Shown here: positions 1 through 9,470 of the stretch, one piece after another
Numbering within the stretch: position 1 is the first letter of the stretch
Layout of the letters: each line of letters begins with the position of its first letter
Assembly (NCBI GenBank): GCA_001304015.1
Contig: LJUY01000075.1
Span: 1 to 9,470 of the forward strand
Source of the DNA: a candidate division Zixibacteria bacterium SM23_81
GTDB taxonomy: Bacteria > SM23-81
Direction of reading: 5' to 3'
DNA: 9,470 nucleotides
Notes under the pieces: generated by a model
Told to the model about the DNA's origin: nothing
The model's database searches: none
The model's input: only the letters and a program-made list of their open reading frames with translations
Made by a program: the position numbers and the translations under genes

Positions 1-144
1 CCTGCCGGTGCGCACGTTCTTCAACTTGGTCCTGACGAAAGCCCCCCCTTTGCCCGGCTTGACATGCAGGAACTCCACTATGGTGTAAAGATCGCCCTCT
101 ACCACCAGGGTCATGCCGTTGCGAAAATCCGCGGTGGTCGCCAT
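1..144 (-). CDS. efp: Elongation factor P, N-terminal part (truncated by window edge)
   Basis: Only the first 48 codons are inside the window. EF-P enters the ribosome between the P and E sites and relieves stalling at consecutive prolines; the family is cytoplasmic. The visible part is the KOW-like first domain. It begins [18 protein letters not shown] and continues through the very conserved stretch [17 protein letters not shown] (about residues 28-44), which contains the lysine-bearing loop that is post-translationally modified in many bacteria. The ATG at 144 is preceded by a purine-rich ribosome site (AGGGGAAGGT) about 1-10 bases upstream. It lies downstream of the M24 peptidase gene on the same strand, a common neighbour of efp, but a 295-bp repeat-filled gap separates them, so it may have its own promoter. 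Identity is near certain; the remaining three quarters of the protein lie outside. Confidence 0.96.
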
Positions 145-272
145 ACCTTCCCCTGAGTTGTTAGCTGGCTGAAAGCAATTCAATCTTTGATAATCGGAAA
201 CCCGTTAATCTAGGATTTATCTTTGTGCCCCCACCCCAGTGGGCAGTGAGCAGCAAGCAGTGAAAGACAAGT

Positions 273-299
273 GGCAGTTGGCAGTTGCAGTTGGTAAGT
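273..299 (+). repeat. GGCAGTT heptamer tandem repeat
   Basis: Degenerate heptamers GGCAGTT, GGCAGTT, GCAGTT and GGTAAGT follow one another in the efp-peptidase gap. The stretch continues into a TCTTTCACGAGTCTC segment (299-313). A similar combination recurs at 6041-6068, and a reverse-strand version at 7099-7118. No coding potential is visible here. The 77-codon minus-strand open frame across 217-450 is simply the translation of simple repeats. Confidence 0.6.
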
Positions 300-381
300 C
301 TTTCACGAGTCTCTCGTCTCGAGTCTCCAGTCTCTTTCTCACAAAAAAGCCTCGATCAACACAACCAGTATCTAGCATCCT

Positions 382-444
382 AACTCTCAAAACTCTCTGA
401 ACTCTCTGAACTCTCTCAACTCTCCAAACTCTCTCAACTCTATA
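382..444 (+). repeat. Seven-copy 9-bp tandem repeat (AACTCTCTG type)
   Basis: Seven consecutive nonamers of the form AACTCTCNN are arranged head to tail: AACTCTCAA, AACTCTCTG twice, AACTCTCTC, AACTCTCCA, AACTCTCTC and AACTCTATA. The last unit supplies the TAG stop (440-442) of the peptidase gene on the minus strand. A 9-bp period preserves frame, so the array can translate as V-[EQ]-R repeats. It is more likely a slippage-generated 3' flank than coding sequence. Confidence 0.85.
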
Positions 445-1507
445 ACTCAACCAGCTCCTTGCTCGCCTGGGTCAAAACCTCACACCCTTCTTCTCGGATC
501 ACCACCACATCCTCAATACGCACCCCTCCCATTTCGGGGATATAGATACCCGGCTCGATGGTCACCACCATGCCTGGAGCCAGGCGCATCTGTCCTTTAG
601 GAGAAAGCTTGGGATCCTCATGAACATCCAGCCCGAGACCATGGCCCAGCCCGTGGCCAAAGTAGTCGCCGTAACCAGCCTCGGCGATGACCCGGCGTGC
701 CACGGCATCCAGCTCTGAGGCCAACATCTCGGCCTTGGCCGCGCTCTCGGCCTGCTGCTGCGCTTGAAGTGTCGTTTCGTATATGTCCCGCTGTCTATCG
801 TCTGCCGAGCCCAGAACCACGGTGCGGGTGAAATCGGAGACATACCCGCCAATCCGGGCTCCAAAGTCCATGGTCACCAAATCTCCTTCCTGAAGCTTTT
901 TTTCCGTAGGCTGCCCGTGAGGTAGTGCCGAACGCTCGCCGGAGACAACTATGGCGTCAAAGGGAAGCCTCTGGGAGCCCCGTTTCCTCATTCGGTACTC
1001 CAGCTCGGCGCAGACATCCACCTCCCTGATCCCCGGCCTAAGCAGCTCCAAGATCTCGTCGAAGACTGCATCGCTGATCTGGACGGCTTGGCGGATTTTC
1101 TCGATCTCCCCAGGCTCCTTCACCATGCTGATCTGTTCGACCAGCTCCCTGACGGGAACTAACTCCGTATTGGGAAGCAGCTCTGTCAGCTGCTGTTCCT
1201 GTTGTACGCTGATGTGTGTGGACTCGAAGCCCAGGCGGCGCTTTCCATCAAACCAGCTGAGGCTAGCCAGGTCCTTGAAAAGCTCCTCCTTAGCCATCCT
1301 GCGCTCAAAGCCCGTCACCTGGTCCTCGGCCTGGGTCTTGTAGCGAAAATCGGTGATGAAGACGGCCTGGTCATCCCCCACCAGGGCGCATCCATTGGAG
1401 CCGCTAAATCCAGTGATATAGCGAAGGCTCCGGGGAGCGGTCAGCAGGAAACCATCTATCTGGTGATCGGAAAGCTTTGCTCTTAGCTTGGCTAAACGAT
1501 CTTTCAT
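440..1507 (-). CDS. M24 family metallopeptidase, Xaa-Pro aminopeptidase/dipeptidase type
   Basis: The 355-residue protein has the two-domain layout of small prokaryotic aminopeptidase P/prolidase enzymes. A creatinase-like N-terminal domain (about 1-125, with RYITGFSGSNG near 30-39) precedes a pita-bread catalytic domain. All five dinuclear-metal ligands are recognisable: D214 (MDFGA), D225 (SDFTRTV), H289 (GHGLGHGLGLDVHE), E318 (IEPGIY) and E332 (VRIEDVVV). Accessory histidines H197 and H296 are also present. The enzyme should release N-terminal residues preceding proline, or split Xaa-Pro dipeptides; which of the two cannot be decided from sequence. It is cytosolic, with no signal peptide. 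The start ATG overlaps the TGA of the upstream TPR gene as ATGA, implying translational coupling. Its stop codon lies in a 9-bp tandem repeat. efp follows on the same strand, a common pairing for this family. Confidence 0.94.
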   Translation of the reverse strand: MKDRLAKLRAKLSDHQIDGFLLTAPRSLRYITGFSGSNGCALVGDDQAVFITDFRYKTQAEDQVTGFERRMAKEELFKDLASLSWFDGKRRLGFESTHISVQQEQQLTELLPNTELVPVRELVEQISMVKEPGEIEKIRQAVQISDAVFDEILELLRPGIREVDVCAELEYRMRKRGSQRLPFDAIVVSGERSALPHGQPTEKKLQEGDLVTMDFGARIGGYVSDFTRTVVLGSADDRQRDIYETTLQAQQQAESAAKAEMLASELDAVARRVIAEAGYGDYFGHGLGHGLGLDVHEDPKLSPKGQMRLAPGMVVTIEPGIYIPEMGGVRIEDVVVIREEGCEVLTQASKELVEL

Positions 1508-2403
1508 GTATCTCCTGTCGTCTCTGTGGGGGGCGCAGGACCCGGCTCTTCAGCATTTTGGTCATCGATGGGCTTCGGATCCTCTGGGGACTCTTTACCA
1601 GTAGTTTTCTTTTGCTTGAGATGGGCCGAACGCAAGGCCTTCAACTCGGCCAGGCGCTCTTTAACCGCTAGATCATCTGGTTTATGGCGCAAAACCTTCT
1701 GGTAGGTCTCGATGGCCTGGTCCAAAAGACCCTGTTGAAAATAGACCTCGGCCAAGGTAGCCGTGGCCATGCCTCGAGGTGGTCCCTTGCCCGACTCTTC
1801 ATCCCCTTCATCCAATAGAAGCTCCGTCTCCTCGGGACTCAGCTTGGATTCCTCGGCCTCAGGATCGGAAGAAGGCTGCTCCTCTTCAGCGCGGGATATC
1901 GCATCCTGGGGCTCGGAGAGCTGCTCCTCGAAAATGGGCACTTCCGTGACCGTGGACAGCTCTTTTGGCGGATCCACCGGGGGGTGCTCATCTTGGGGAG
2001 TCTGAAGCTCCTCCAACACCTCACGAACCTCGACGTTCCCGGCGTCCAATTCCAGAATCCGCCGATAGTGCTCAGCGGCCGTCTGGAGATCTCCCTGCCT
2101 GAAGGTTATATCGCCCAAGTTTTTAAGAACCAGTATATTTCCAGAATCGAGGGTCAGCGCTCCCCGGAAGGCTTCTTGGGCCTCTTGGAGGTCTCCCCGA
2201 TCCAGATAGCATCTACCCAGGACGACGTGACCGCTGGCATAGTCCGGGTGGAACTGAAGGCCCTTCCTGCACAGCTCGATGGCCTCCTCAACGTGGTCGC
2301 TGCGACGCAACTCGTCGGCCAGCCGGGCGAATACCCGCGATTTTTCATCCGACTGGAGTCTCTTATGCAGCCTGGCCATGAGGGAATGCTGCGAGCTCTT
2401 CAT
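1504..2403 (-). CDS. Tetratricopeptide-repeat protein with acidic linker
   Basis: The 299-residue soluble protein has three adjacent TPR units at about 22-55, 56-89 and 90-123 (for example AIELCRKGLQFHPDYASGHVV and AAEHYRRILELDAGN). A long Pro/Glu/Ser-rich acidic linker (about 134-210) follows. A fourth TPR lies at about 212-247 (LAEVYFQQGLLDQAIETYQKV), then a lysine- then proline/acid-rich tail. TPRs bind peptides, so this is probably a scaffold; no catalytic motif, signal peptide or membrane segment is visible. The ATG at 2403 has a purine-rich ribosome site (CAGGGGG) several bases upstream. Its TGA overlaps the peptidase ATG, so the two are probably co-translated. Similar TPR-linker-TPR proteins sit near LPS-core and peptidase genes in deltaproteobacteria, but no specific function can be assigned. 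The acidic linker may be poorly conserved. Confidence 0.85.
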   Translation of the reverse strand: MKSSQHSLMARLHKRLQSDEKSRVFARLADELRRSDHVEEAIELCRKGLQFHPDYASGHVVLGRCYLDRGDLQEAQEAFRGALTLDSGNILVLKNLGDITFRQGDLQTAAEHYRRILELDAGNVEVREVLEELQTPQDEHPPVDPPKELSTVTEVPIFEEQLSEPQDAISRAEEEQPSSDPEAEESKLSPEETELLLDEGDEESGKGPPRGMATATLAEVYFQQGLLDQAIETYQKVLRHKPDDLAVKERLAELKALRSAHLKQKKTTGKESPEDPKPIDDQNAEEPGPAPPTETTGDT

Positions 2404-2480
2404 GAAGGCCCCCTGAAATAAAAAGCCTCTTTAGTGGTCGATTTATACGATAGCACAACTGGGAGCCGATGTCAAGAAGG

Positions 2481-2540
2481 AATCATGGAAAAAAAGAATT
2501 ATGAAAAAAATTTATGGAAAAAAGAATCATGGAAAAAATG
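2481..2540 (+). repeat. Imperfect A-rich repeat, four ATGGAAAAAA units
   Basis: Four imperfect 14-16 bp units (2481-2496, 2497-2510, 2511-2524, 2525-2540), each containing ATGGAAAAAA or ATGAAAAAAA, fill part of the 193-bp gap between rfaE2 and the TPR gene. Read on the minus (transcribed) strand they give successive T-runs. There is no preceding GC-rich stem, so this is not a classical terminator. The plus-strand open frame through it (2434-2739) is lysine-rich low complexity and continues antisense into rfaE2, so I do not call it a gene. Confidence 0.7.
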
Positions 2541-2596
2541 GAGACTACGGAAAAACCAGGGAAAAAGGCAAGCCCGGCCATCCCTAGCTCAGAATC

Positions 2597-3073
2597 CTAG
2601 CCATACCGCTGGAGAATTCTCTGGATCAGACCCCTTGTGGAAAAACCCTCCACCAAAGGCACCGACACCACCCTGCCCCCGGCCTGCTCGACCGTATCAC
2701 GCCCCACAATTTCGTCGAGCTGGTAATCGCTGCCTTTGACCAGCACGTCGGGCACCACGGCCTGGATGAGCCGTGCCGGCGTCTCTTCCTCGAAGATACA
2801 CACGTAGTCCACCATCTCCAGGGCCGTCAGGACCCGAGCTCGGTCCTCCTGCGGGGTCAGGGGCCGCCCATGACCCTTCAGCTTTTGCACTGAGCGGTCG
2901 CTGTTTAGGCCCACCACCAAGATGTCGCCCAACTTCTTGGCCTGGATCAGGTACTCGACATGGCCCCGGTGCAGTAAGTCGAAGCATCCGTTGGTGAAGA
3001 CCACCTTGCGACCCTGCCTCCGGGCCTCATGGCGGACAGTGACCAGCTCCTCTCGGGTTAACAGCTCGCCCAT
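2597..3073 (-). CDS. rfaE2: D-glycero-beta-D-manno-heptose 1-phosphate adenylyltransferase
   Basis: The 158-residue cytidylyltransferase-fold enzyme corresponds to the C-terminal half of E. coli HldE. It transfers AMP from ATP to heptose-1-phosphate, giving ADP-D-glycero-beta-D-manno-heptose for LPS inner core. The signature is complete: VFTNGCFDLLHRGHVEYL (25-42) with the HxGH motif at H35-H38, GLNSDRSV (55-62), the RPLTPQEDRARVL region (70-82), LVKGSDY (111-117) and the C-terminal STRGLIQRI (145-153). Length is typical for the stand-alone form. It starts 2 bp after the stop of the kinase gene rfaE1, so the two steps carried by one fused protein in enterobacteria are encoded here by adjacent genes, as in many deltaproteobacteria and other lineages. 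The start ATG at 3073 has only a weak ribosome site and is probably coupled to rfaE1 translation. Confidence 0.96.
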   Translation of the reverse strand: MGELLTREELVTVRHEARRQGRKVVFTNGCFDLLHRGHVEYLIQAKKLGDILVVGLNSDRSVQKLKGHGRPLTPQEDRARVLTALEMVDYVCIFEEETPARLIQAVVPDVLVKGSDYQLDEIVGRDTVEQAGGRVVSVPLVEGFSTRGLIQRILQRYG

Positions 3074-3075
3074 GG

Positions 3076-4077
3076 TTATGAGTCTTCGGTGAAGTGTCCC
3101 AGATCTTCTGCTAGCTCCCGGAAGGTCACCGCCGTAGTGCCCACGCCCGCCACGGCGATACCGGCGGCGTGGTTGGAGATGAGGGCCGCCTCCTTGAGGC
3201 TGGCCCCGGCGGTACGGGCCACAACGAAGGAGGCCACCACGGTGTCGCCGGCCCCGGTGACGTCGTAGACCTCCCGGGCCAGGGTAGGGAAATGGGTCAA
3301 AGAGCCATCCCCCTCGAACAGGGCCATGCCCTCCTCCCCCCGGGTGATGAGCAGCGCCTCCAGCTCCAGACGCTGGAGCATCCCCTGGCCCACCTCCTTC
3401 AGGCTGGTCCCGTCGGTGATGGGCCGCCCGTAAGCCTGGCCGGCCTCCTTCTGGTTGGGAGTGATGAGGGAGACGCCGCGGTACAGGGGGAAGTGGGATT
3501 CCTTGGGGTCCACGGCCACGAACTTGCCCTTCTCCTTGGCCAGAGGCAGAATCCGGCTGAGGATCTTCGCGGTGATGACCCCCTTGCCGTAGTCGGAGAT
3601 GATCACGGCATGAACATCATGTAAATGGCCCTCGACCTTTTCCAGGATCTGTTGGAAGGCTTTGCCCGCTAGCTCCCGGGTATCTTCACGGTCGGCTCGG
3701 ACCACCTGCTGACTGTGGGCCACCACGCGGGTCTTTACGGTGGTGCTCCGGTCCACATCGGTGACTATTCCTCCCGTGTCGACGCCCTCATCGCCTATGG
3801 CCTGGATCAGCGTATGGCCGTGCTGATCGTCACCCACCAGCCCAACCAGCACCGGCGTGGCGCCCAGAGTGTGGATGTTGTGAGCCACGTTGCCCGCCCC
3901 ACCCAGGCGGATGGTCTCGTCGTTGACCTCCACCACCGGCACGGGGGCCTCTGGGGAAATGCGAGTGACGGTGCCCCACAGGAAGTGATCCAACATGAGG
4001 TCGCCCAGGACCATGACGCGGGAGGATGCAAAGCCGGAGAGGATCTCCTCTAAGCGTTTCTTGGGGATTTTGTCCAT
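3076..4077 (-). CDS. rfaE1: D-glycero-beta-D-manno-heptose-7-phosphate kinase
   Basis: The 333-residue PfkB/ribokinase-family kinase is equivalent to the N-terminal domain of HldE. It phosphorylates D-glycero-D-manno-heptose-7-phosphate at C1 in the cytoplasm. Family marks in order are VMVLGDLMLDHFLWG (21-35, the RfaE1-type opening), LGGAGNVAHN (58-67, PfkB signature 1), SDYGKG (161-166), DPK (190-192), TPNQKE (206-211) and the ATP/anion-hole signature DVTGAGDTVVASF (272-284) with catalytic base D278. Length matches the family. No strong Shine-Dalgarno precedes the ATG at 4077, and the sequence upstream is not convincingly coding, so I keep this start. As the first gene of the run it probably follows a promoter in the 158-bp gap to the repeat at 4236, but I could not pick one. 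A 6-bp-stem hairpin (4108-4125) lies in its leader. Confidence 0.96.
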   Translation of the reverse strand: MDKIPKKRLEEILSGFASSRVMVLGDLMLDHFLWGTVTRISPEAPVPVVEVNDETIRLGGAGNVAHNIHTLGATPVLVGLVGDDQHGHTLIQAIGDEGVDTGGIVTDVDRSTTVKTRVVAHSQQVVRADREDTRELAGKAFQQILEKVEGHLHDVHAVIISDYGKGVITAKILSRILPLAKEKGKFVAVDPKESHFPLYRGVSLITPNQKEAGQAYGRPITDGTSLKEVGQGMLQRLELEALLITRGEEGMALFEGDGSLTHFPTLAREVYDVTGAGDTVVASFVVARTAGASLKEAALISNHAAGIAVAGVGTTAVTFRELAEDLGHFTEDS

Positions 4078-4235
4078 GGAATGTGCTGAAAAGGTGAAAA
4101 GTCGAATACTTGCGAGTCAGCAAGTGCATAGATTGTTTGGGATTGGTTATAAATGAGCTACTGCAATATTGGGGAAATTTGCGGAAAAGTCAAGGGGAAA
4201 GTTGAATGATAGGAGGAAGGAGGCGGATTTAAAAA

Positions 4236-6110: not shown

Positions 6111-6218
6111 CACGAATCACGAAAAGTGATCACGTTCTTTTCAGAATTCAAAAAAGTAGCGTCCTCACTCCTGTGAGGACGACTCTTTCATCGCCACTGG
6201 AATCCAGAGACACGCTTA
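6111..6218. repeat. REPIN-like double-hairpin element, copy C (right half decayed)
   Basis: The left flank (6111-6155) matches that of copy B. GTAG (6156-6159) is followed by a perfect hairpin, GTCCTCACTCCTGTGAGGAC (6161-6180). The second hairpin is broken: TCGCCACTGG (6191-6200) remains but its partner arm is scrambled, and the right foot reads GCTTA. The ferritin TAA stop (6216-6218) occupies the foot position. On the minus strand the intact hairpin is followed by GCTAC and a run of six T, so it may terminate ferritin transcription. Confidence 0.75.
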
Positions 6219-6524
6219 TCTCTTTTTCATCTTCTCGATTTCCTCCTCAACCTCTTCCGCGCCCTCAGCATAGAATTTCTCTTCGTCGGGAGCCAATTCT
6301 CTCAGCAGCCGGAGGAATTCTCCGGCATGTACGCGCTCCTCGTCGGCGATGTCCTTCAACACCTCGATGGCTAATGTACGGTCGGTAGACTCTGCCAGCT
6401 GCATGTACAACTGAACGGCCTCATATTCCGCCGCGATCATGAACCGAATGGCCCGGATGAGCTCATCTTTAGTGAGTTTCCTGTCGTGCGCCAGCCCGGA
6501 AAAAGGCGATCCAAATTCTGGCAT
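6216..6524 (-). CDS. Encapsulated-ferritin-like (EncFtn/Flp) protein
   Basis: The 102-residue, mostly helical protein resembles encapsulated ferritins and the ferritin-like domain fused to archaeal encapsulins. By alignment from memory with the Rhodospirillum EncFtn core, E33 and E35 (AAEYEAVQLY), Y40, E63 and H66 (DEERVHAGEF) correspond to its ferroxidase and entry-site residues. Two antiparallel helices, about 17-45 and 48-78, would need to dimerise to form the iron site, as in EncFtn. The start at 6524 is set by a strong ribosome site (AGGAGG, seven bases before ATG); the open frame continues upstream to 6635 but without support. The acidic/lysine tail (EEVEEEIEKMKKR) shows no typical encapsulin cargo peptide, and no shell gene is nearby. 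The likely role is iron oxidation or peroxide protection; partner unknown. Confidence 0.85.
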   Translation of the reverse strand: MPEFGSPFSGLAHDRKLTKDELIRAIRFMIAAEYEAVQLYMQLAESTDRTLAIEVLKDIADEERVHAGEFLRLLRELAPDEEKFYAEGAEEVEEEIEKMKKR

Positions 6525-6613
6525 GATGGCACCTCCTCTCTGTGCAAAAGTTATGAATCCACTCAATCTGATCGGCAGTGCACGGTAAGCAGGCGGTCTG
6601 CAGTCAATCCATG

Positions 6614-6714
6614 TGGGGGCGCGGTTTCCGCGCACATCTCAAGTTCTAGGAAAGGTTTCCAGCCATATAGGGGCGGTTCGCGAACCGCCCACCTTCGTCT
6701 ACGGAAAGGATTCT
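6614..6714. repeat. Diverged tandem duplication containing two GC-rich palindromes
   Basis: Unit 1 (6614-6660) holds hairpin GCGCGGtttCCGCGC (6619-6633) then TCTAGGAAAGGTTTC. Unit 2 (6669-6713) holds the perfect 20-bp palindrome GGGCGGTTCGCGAACCGCCC (6671-6690) then TCTACGGAAAGGATTC. The order palindrome, spacer, TCTA(C)GGAAAGG(N)TTC is the same in both. It lies between the ferritin and the small membrane gene; no T-run follows either stem. Confidence 0.55.
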
Positions 6715-7239: not shown

Positions 7240-7797
7240 CTATTTACTGAGCTTGACAGCGGTGCCGTAAGCTAAAAGTTCAGCCGCACTGCCCACGACA
7301 CTGGTAGTCATATAGCGAACATTGATTATTGCATCCGCCCCCATCTGGGCAGCTTGGGCGATCATCCTGCTGGTAGCTGCCGCCCGAGCCGTGCCCATCA
7401 TCTCTGTATATTCCGTCAATTCGCCGCCAAGGATAAGCCTGATCAGGGCGGATAGATCTTTTCCCAACCAGATAGCAAATACCGTATGGCCCTGAACGAG
7501 ACCGAGAATCTCATGTATCTCTCGGCGGGGCACTACATCTGAATTCAACAGCAGAACACCAGCTTCAGAGTCCGTAGGCAGAGGCACTGCTGCTGGTCTC
7601 TTCCCCTTCTTTTGTTCGAGAGCTACTGTCAGCAGAACCAGAAGGATGCCACCCAGAAGGCCAAAGACAGCCATCCGCAGCCACCAAGGGACTGCCGGAT
7701 CATCCTCAACGACCACGTGCCATGGTATTCCGACAAATACCACAACGAACAGCCCGAGCACGAAGGCCAGCGAGCCAATATGTCGAAGTACTTTCAT
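7240..7797 (-). CDS. Membrane-anchored YbjQ/UPF0145-domain protein
   Basis: The 185-residue protein has two N-terminal hydrophobic helices (about 7-27 and 37-60), a basic stop-transfer EQKKGKR, and a C-terminal YbjQ-like domain (about 81-184). Domain marks are EIHEILGLVQGHTVFA (93-108), LGGELTEYTEMMGTAR (123-138), RMIAQAAQMGADAIINVRYMTT (144-165) and AAELLAYGTAVKL (171-183). The fold is sometimes called putative heavy-metal binding, but its function is unknown. The orientation of the domain to the membrane cannot be read reliably. The ATG at 7797 has a good ribosome site (GGGAG, five bases upstream). It begins 53 bp after the lipoprotein gene stop on the same strand, so the two are probably co-transcribed and both are envelope-associated. 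Confidence 0.88.
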   Translation of the reverse strand: MKVLRHIGSLAFVLGLFVVVFVGIPWHVVVEDDPAVPWWLRMAVFGLLGGILLVLLTVALEQKKGKRPAAVPLPTDSEAGVLLLNSDVVPRREIHEILGLVQGHTVFAIWLGKDLSALIRLILGGELTEYTEMMGTARAAATSRMIAQAAQMGADAIINVRYMTTSVVGSAAELLAYGTAVKLSK

Positions 7798-8762: not shown

Positions 8763-8819
8763 GCATAACGACGTGGATCAGCCGCGAGTTTACGAGTCGG
8801 CTGAATCCGTTGGTTGGGC
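8763..8819 (-). other. attC-like integron recombination site (57 bp)
   Basis: Read on the minus strand it has box R'' GCCCAAC (8813-8819, exact RYYYAAC), a 4-base spacer, arm GGATTCAGCCG, a 13-base loop, arm CGGCTGATCC, a 5-base spacer ACGTC, and box R' GTTATGC (8763-8769; one mismatch to GTTRRRY). The arms form a 10-bp stem with a single extra T on the R'' side, where known attC sites carry an extrahelical base. The outer boxes pair at 5 of 7 positions. It begins 2 bp after the HAD gene stop, as in integron cassettes. No integrase or second site is visible. Confidence 0.65.
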
Positions 8820-8821
8820 CA

Positions 8822-9470
8822 TCAATTCACAAACTTCAGAAGCTCCGTCGGTCGACCGATAACTTCAGCGGCGCCAGACTCTCGCAACTCCTTCTCCGAA
8901 CGAAAGCCCCACAGCGCGCCAACTGGGAGCATGCCAGCGCCGATGGCCGTCTTCATATCGACGGCACTGTCGCCAAGATAGAGAAACTCGTGTGCTGGAA
9001 TATCCAAACGCCGGGCTATCTCTCGTGGACCTGCGGGATCAGGCTTCAGGGGCACTCCATCTCTTTGGCCAAGTATCACTGCAAACTCCCAGCCGGAGAA
9101 GTATTCGTGAATGCAGAGCTCAGCGACAGGCTGAGCTTTGTTTGTCAGCACAGCCATCTCAATGTGTTTTGCAGTGAGGGCATCCAGCAATTCCGGTACT
9201 CCGCTGTACGGCTTGGTCTTCATGTTCCAGTTACGGTCATACTCCCTGCGGAAGGCCTGCAGACAATCTGCTATCAGCTGGTCATTCCGCTTCTCCGGCG
9301 GCAGCGCGCGGGATACAAGCGCGGCTGCTCCATTGCCGACGAAATAGCGAAATGCCTCCGTCGGGTGTGTCGGCAGCCCCTTCTGCTGCAAGACACGATT
9401 CATTGAACCGGCAAGATCCTCCAAGGTGTCAAGCAAGGTCCCATCCAAGTCGAAAATGACAGCTCTATAC
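8822..9470 (-). CDS. HAD-superfamily phosphatase, phosphoglycolate phosphatase-like (N-terminus beyond window)
   Basis: The frame is open to the window edge. It begins YRAVIFDLDGTLLDT, so a few N-terminal residues are missing; a TTG at 9448 would wrongly cut off the catalytic nucleophile. HAD motif I is FDLDGT, motif II is AVLTNK, motif III is the lysine in LKPDP, and motif IV is YLGDSAVDM. The helical cap between motifs I and II resembles Gph, which removes phosphate from 2-phosphoglycolate, though many close relatives act on other sugar or nucleotide phosphates. The rest is complete and normal in length. The TGA stop (8822-8824) lies 2 bp before the attC-like site, so this gene may be the body of an integron cassette. 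It is soluble, with no signal peptide. Confidence 0.9.
   Translation of the reverse strand, partial: YRAVIFDLDGTLLDTLEDLAGSMNRVLQQKGLPTHPTEAFRYFVGNGAAALVSRALPPEKRNDQLIADCLQAFRREYDRNWNMKTKPYSGVPELLDALTAKHIEMAVLTNKAQPVAELCIHEYFSGWEFAVILGQRDGVPLKPDPAGPREIARRLDIPAHEFLYLGDSAVDMKTAIGAGMLPVGALWGFRSEKELRESGAAEVIGRPTELLKFVN

Follow-up and report, generated by a model that had tools for sequence, protein, structure and literature searches.

The window, by which the whole analysed stretch of 9,470 bp is meant, constitutes the entire contig C28, one of the 99 contigs that make up a 3.07-Mb draft genome bin, and a 57-nt element close to one of its ends is almost certainly an integron attC recombination site. 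Together with the HAD-type phosphatase gene lying before it, this element very probably represents one integron gene cassette in standard orientation, stranded after integrase decay. The best reading is a single integron cassette, corresponding to the SALIN category (a single attC without integrase; PMC12690207), or the end of an array cut off by assembly. On the minus strand, the HAD gene (open at its 5' end) comes first at the contig end, and 2 nt separate its stop codon from the 57-nt site. A further 36 nt, which include a ribosome-binding sequence, lead to an alpha/beta-hydrolase lipoprotein gene, and a YbjQ-domain gene follows. The principal features are as follows:

8763..8819, minus strand: attC site, 57 nt, detected with covariance model R1; the cassette top strand is the window minus strand
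8813..8819, minus strand: R'' box GCCCAAC, an exact RYYYAAC
8798..8808, minus strand: left stem arm GGAT-T-CAGCCG, with the extrahelical base at 8804
8785..8797, minus strand: variable terminal structure ACTCGTAAACTCG, without internal stem (from alignment, site list and fold)
8775..8784, minus strand: right stem arm CGGCTG-ATCC, placed by register comparison
8763..8769, minus strand: R' box GTTATGC, with the exchange point expected between G (8769) and T (8768)
8822..9470, minus strand: HAD-IA phosphatase gene, phosphoglycolate-phosphatase-like (PF13419, 3.6e-32), its 5' end cut by the contig end
7851..8726, minus strand: alpha/beta-hydrolase lipoprotein gene (PF00561, 1.7e-28), starting 36 nt past the attC site

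Architecture and register of the site

An earlier note on this DNA had proposed an attC-like site at 8763-8819 with all parts in order, namely a RYYYAAC box, imperfectly paired outer boxes, spacers and a 10-bp stem with an extra base. The sequence bears this out on the minus strand, where every one of these parts is present and positions 8819 to 8763 read GCCCAAC-CAAC-GGAT-T-CAGCCG-ACTCGTAAACTCG-CGGCTG-ATCC-ACGTC-GTTATGC. The R'' and R' boxes lie in inverted orientation with 5 of 7 pairs formed and 2 of 7 broken, and R' departs from GTTRRRY at one R, which is a T; the position of the exchange point in R' follows PMC2727003. Between the boxes, unpaired spacers of 4 and 5 nt flank an inner stem of 10 bp carrying one extra T on the R''-L'' side at the canonical index, and the stem is closed by a terminal loop of 13 nt that opens with A, as after the stem in most of the attC sites compared. 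The total length, which the earlier note had placed at the low end for attC sites, equals the lower bound of the known range of 57-142 nt (PMC2727003).

When the site was set beside 11 attC sites, including those of aadA1, aadA16, aacA4 and cmlA5, its register proved to be that of aadA1 and cmlA5, position for position. With reference to the class 1 attC register, all nine of the nine inner pairs are present, the extrahelical base is in place and five of the seven outer-box pairs are formed. The extrahelical index, the adjoining six-pair block and the distance of 15 nt between the beginning of the right stem and R' are common to this site and all 11 compared attC sites. In another genome, an attC site of 58 nt that adjoins an intI gene (L039:4159-4216) has the same R' box, GTTATGC.

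Covariance-model support and matches in other genomes

Statistical support comes mainly from R1, a covariance model built on 11 attC sites from class 1 and class 3 integrons and intI-linked loci, with the window site left out. Because full sites came out of MAFFT in the wrong register, the terminal loop of the training sites was shortened, which gave a nearly gapless alignment. R1 assigned the window site 33.3 bits, with E = 2.2e-6 in the window (filters off) and E = 7.4e-4 in the 3.07-Mb bin, both values being rough, as they rest on a shortened calibration. The site is thus distinct from background in a covariance-model search of the kind that the earlier note had recommended, here with a model of our own, and it is the sole match of its class in the bin, where the runner-up reached 16.3 bits. 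The model also recovers class 1 sites on which it was not trained (IMP-1/fosE, 56.3 bits; the aadA1 cassette of L106, 54.3 bits) and gives 35-37 bits to untrained sites at four intI loci (L041, L044, L045 and L059). A simple finder requiring two boxes, a one-bulge stem with a length of 10 or more and at least 5 R-box pairs returned 1 match of such quality in 30 Mb of first-order Markov sequence derived from the window, both strands considered, corresponding to a chance expectation of ~3e-4 per window and ~0.1 per 3-Mb genome. The bare box pattern, with 208 matches in the genome versus 393 for a reversed control, is uninformative alone.

Folding energy was considered as evidence for the site and rejected as not significant. 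The predicted fold of the bottom strand has the shape of an attC site at -9.1 kcal/mol, with z -1.06 and a further z of -1.49, both within the range of shuffled sequences, whereas the comparison attC sites fold at z -3.6 to -6.4. The fold is weak because the 13-nt terminal loop lacks a stem, and this weakness makes current activity doubtful; confidence that the site is active today is low. By sequence and architecture the site is real, possibly weak or decaying.

These data also bear on the alternative that the element is a chance hairpin, or a transcription terminator of the HAD gene that resembles attC, which appears highly improbable. The element does follow a stop codon, and its folding energy within the shuffle range would suit such an origin, but the boxes, spacers and extrahelical base all stand in attC register, the R1 E-value amounts to 7.4e-4 per genome and no T-run follows the site. 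BLAST found no match to the site among plasmids and none to the region among phages. Elsewhere, a weak attC-like element of 16.3 bits (L169:1767-1843, on contig C57 of the bin G000) likewise occurs just before a lipoprotein gene and may be due to chance. As the window site illustrates, an attC read by eye from sequence can be a true attC.

The phylum is represented by three further genomes in the searched set (G001, G002 and G003), and all three contain attC-like sites, with scores of 27 and 26 bits in the family member G001 and maxima of 42 bits in G002 and 49.7 bits in G003. In G002 (L160:2575-3893, contig C47), two sites of the same orientation enclose ORFs resembling DUF4258, MqsA and HicB proteins, with families assigned by eye; judged in this way, they form an apparent toxin-antitoxin cassette, a typical cargo. 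G003 contains fragments of intI, and two of these lie where contigs end. The record of integron traces, here attC sites, an apparent toxin-antitoxin cassette and intI relics, is extended to a phylum with only four genomes in the searched set. Across 140 genomes, 43 had an R1 match at E <= 0.05, and lone sites were common among them. One such genome, G061, is a finished 5.0-Mb chromosome with no recognisable intI and four scattered attC sites (L170-L173), each no more than 65 nt from the end of a same-strand ORF; lone attC sites are therefore not only an assembly effect.

The probable HAD cassette and its genomic surroundings

The HAD gene is highly likely to be the cassette gene of this attC site. 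The arrangement is that of a gene cassette, with one gene in the same orientation as the site and its stop codon 2 nt before R'', so that the abutment of site and stop codon described in the earlier note holds. The HAD, lipoprotein and YbjQ genes had been said to share one orientation, and all three, like all recognisable genes named in the window, lie on the minus strand. The product scores 125 bits against TIGR01449, under the cut-off of 180, and its homologues begin with MKYKAV or VKYRAV. The contig terminates in about codon 2 of the gene, 651 nt from the attC site.

HAD relatives at 79% and 75% identity occur in Deltaproteobacteria MAGs in ordinary chromosomal settings with unrelated flanks. 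As these relatives lack attC, the HAD gene is not a dedicated cassette gene, and the possibility that its homologues serve as cassettes elsewhere was rejected, since none of the 34 HAD-homologue loci showed a convincing attC. The earlier note had pointed to a HAD-lipoprotein neighbourhood fixed in related genomes as a finding that would speak against its reading. A lipoprotein hydrolase adjoined the HAD gene in 0 of the same 34 loci, and this neighbourhood is therefore not fixed chromosome.

The lipoprotein gene, previously noted as AT-rich, indeed has a GC fraction of 0.433 versus 0.50-0.64 in other genes. With filters off, R1 detected only one attC in the contig, and neither the lipoprotein gene nor the YbjQ gene is followed by another. 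Because it has no attC of its own, the lipoprotein gene is probably not a second cassette and is most simply taken as host DNA or as acquired separately. The YbjQ-domain gene (window 7240-7797) is 72% identical to one in G004, a genome of another phylum, and has no counterpart in the family member G001; its similarity to the G004 gene does not extend beyond the gene itself, which points to lateral transfer. It was also considered as a second mobile cassette and rejected, as no attC was found beside it.

The bin itself appears to be composite. Contig C78 (L115) carries a second, syntenic copy, 73% identical, of window 427-4203 (about 1-4200; hldE1-hldE2-TPR-pepQ). Because C78 duplicates this hldE-to-pepQ stretch at such identity, the bin most likely consists of pieces of two related genomes, and C28 could be attributed to either. 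A 98-bp intergenic stretch (window 238-335) is 80% identical to one on contig C19 and resembles a dispersed repeat of the lineage; its presence on both C28 and C19 speaks for a common lineage. Elsewhere in the window, positions 6216-6635 encode an EncB-type encapsulin cargo ferritin-like protein (NF058679, 94.5 bits; cut-off 90), and Rfam at gathering thresholds gave no matches across the window.

Integrase relics, origin of the lone site and known systems

The earlier note had seen no integrase in view. This holds for intact genes, as no intact integron integrase exceeded the cut-off in the 92.6%-complete bin, but not for degraded ones, since two decayed intI C-terminal relics are present on contigs C19 and C26, one of which carries a frameshift and lies 0.2 kb short of the end of its contig:

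G000:C19, about 30560-30760 (L067, about 19560-19760): intI relic, with the frame resuming after the frameshift with SRGGRGVRSPFDS
G000:C26:127045-127239 (L004:1501-1695): intI relic, more decayed, ending in VLNRGGRGVRNPIDSL

The best family for the C19 relic is integron integrase, at 81.1 bits versus 62.7 for XerC, and the ending NRGGRGVRSPLD is that of the full-length integron integrases compared. The full-length tyrosine recombinases found in the bin were identified as XerD, at 373 bits, and XerC, at 346 bits. No attC was detected beside either relic. As the relics sit on other contigs, they are tied to the HAD cassette by lineage only. The arrangement of a complete integron, an intact intI with attI beside the cassettes, is not seen here; the contig holds one attC. 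The SALIN definition of a single attC and no integrase is true of the assembly, although the end of the contig within the HAD gene leaves this assignment short of certain.

Regarding its history, an integron integrase (IntI) would once have folded the bottom strand of the attC site, which is the window plus strand, performed the exchange at R' and inserted the HAD cassette, which would then have been the last or only one before the host lipoprotein gene. Subsequent decay of the integrases of the lineage would have left the cassette stranded, presumably movable only by an IntI acting in trans.

Two other accounts of how the site came to stand alone deserve consideration, both of which the earlier note had raised beside a cluster lacking an integrase. 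It may be the last attC of a longer array whose remainder, with an intI intact or not, continued past the end of the contig and dropped out during assembly, a scenario that is possible although we lean against it. The contig stops in codon 2 of the HAD gene, about where the preceding attC would be expected, and integrons are known to be broken up at attC sites in draft assemblies (PMC9024848). Among the best attC matches of 30 genomes, 15 lay within 2 kb of a contig end versus 9.3 expected (p ~0.002); this excess is weak at a 1-kb limit (p 0.07), however, and nothing else in the 92.6%-complete bin scores above 17 bits as an attC, nor was an intact intI found there. In the second account, an IntI acting elsewhere in the genome or cell placed one cassette off-target, in a secondary site of the attG type; we regard this, too, as possible but lean against it. 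Only one attC is present, beside a host gene that has a ribosome-binding sequence of its own, and off-target insertion is an accepted origin of integrase-less clusters (PMC8618304). Insertion at attG sites is described as established by Loot et al. (2024) in the account given in PMC12444791, and the intI-less G061 has its four scattered sites close behind ORFs. On the other hand, the other border of the cassette lies off the contig, and no related genome with an empty site was found.

A broader interpretation, in which the integrons of this little-sampled phylum have largely collapsed into dispersed single cassettes and relic integrases, is unlikely on present data. If it were true, isolated attC-tagged genes such as the HAD gene would persist as potential cargo for an incoming integrase.

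Among known systems, the presumed stranded HAD cassette most directly recalls integrase-less attC loci, in which an attC follows a gene with no intact intI nearby. It differs from them in that the end of a draft contig limits the site count and in that decayed intI relics occur elsewhere in the bin. Single attC sites can be true positives, and draft assemblies split integrons at contig borders (PMC9024848); off-target insertion and intI loss have both been proposed as origins of such loci (PMC8618304). Cassettes inserted at attG sites (Loot et al., 2024) would likewise leave a single attC beside a host gene, whereas the insertion border and the empty site are not seen in the present case. With class 1 attC sites such as those of aadA1 and cmlA5, the window site shares the R''/R' boxes, the spacers, the L stem and the register of the extrahelical base, but its terminal part is shorter and stemless and its fold is weaker; the extrahelical base of the cassette top strand is T, as opposed to C in aadA1 and G in cmlA5. 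The picture of integron workings remains unchanged, given that single attC sites without integrase are already recognised and drafts are known to break at such places. The HAD cassette thus belongs to a kind already known, a leftover of an integron rather than a new system.
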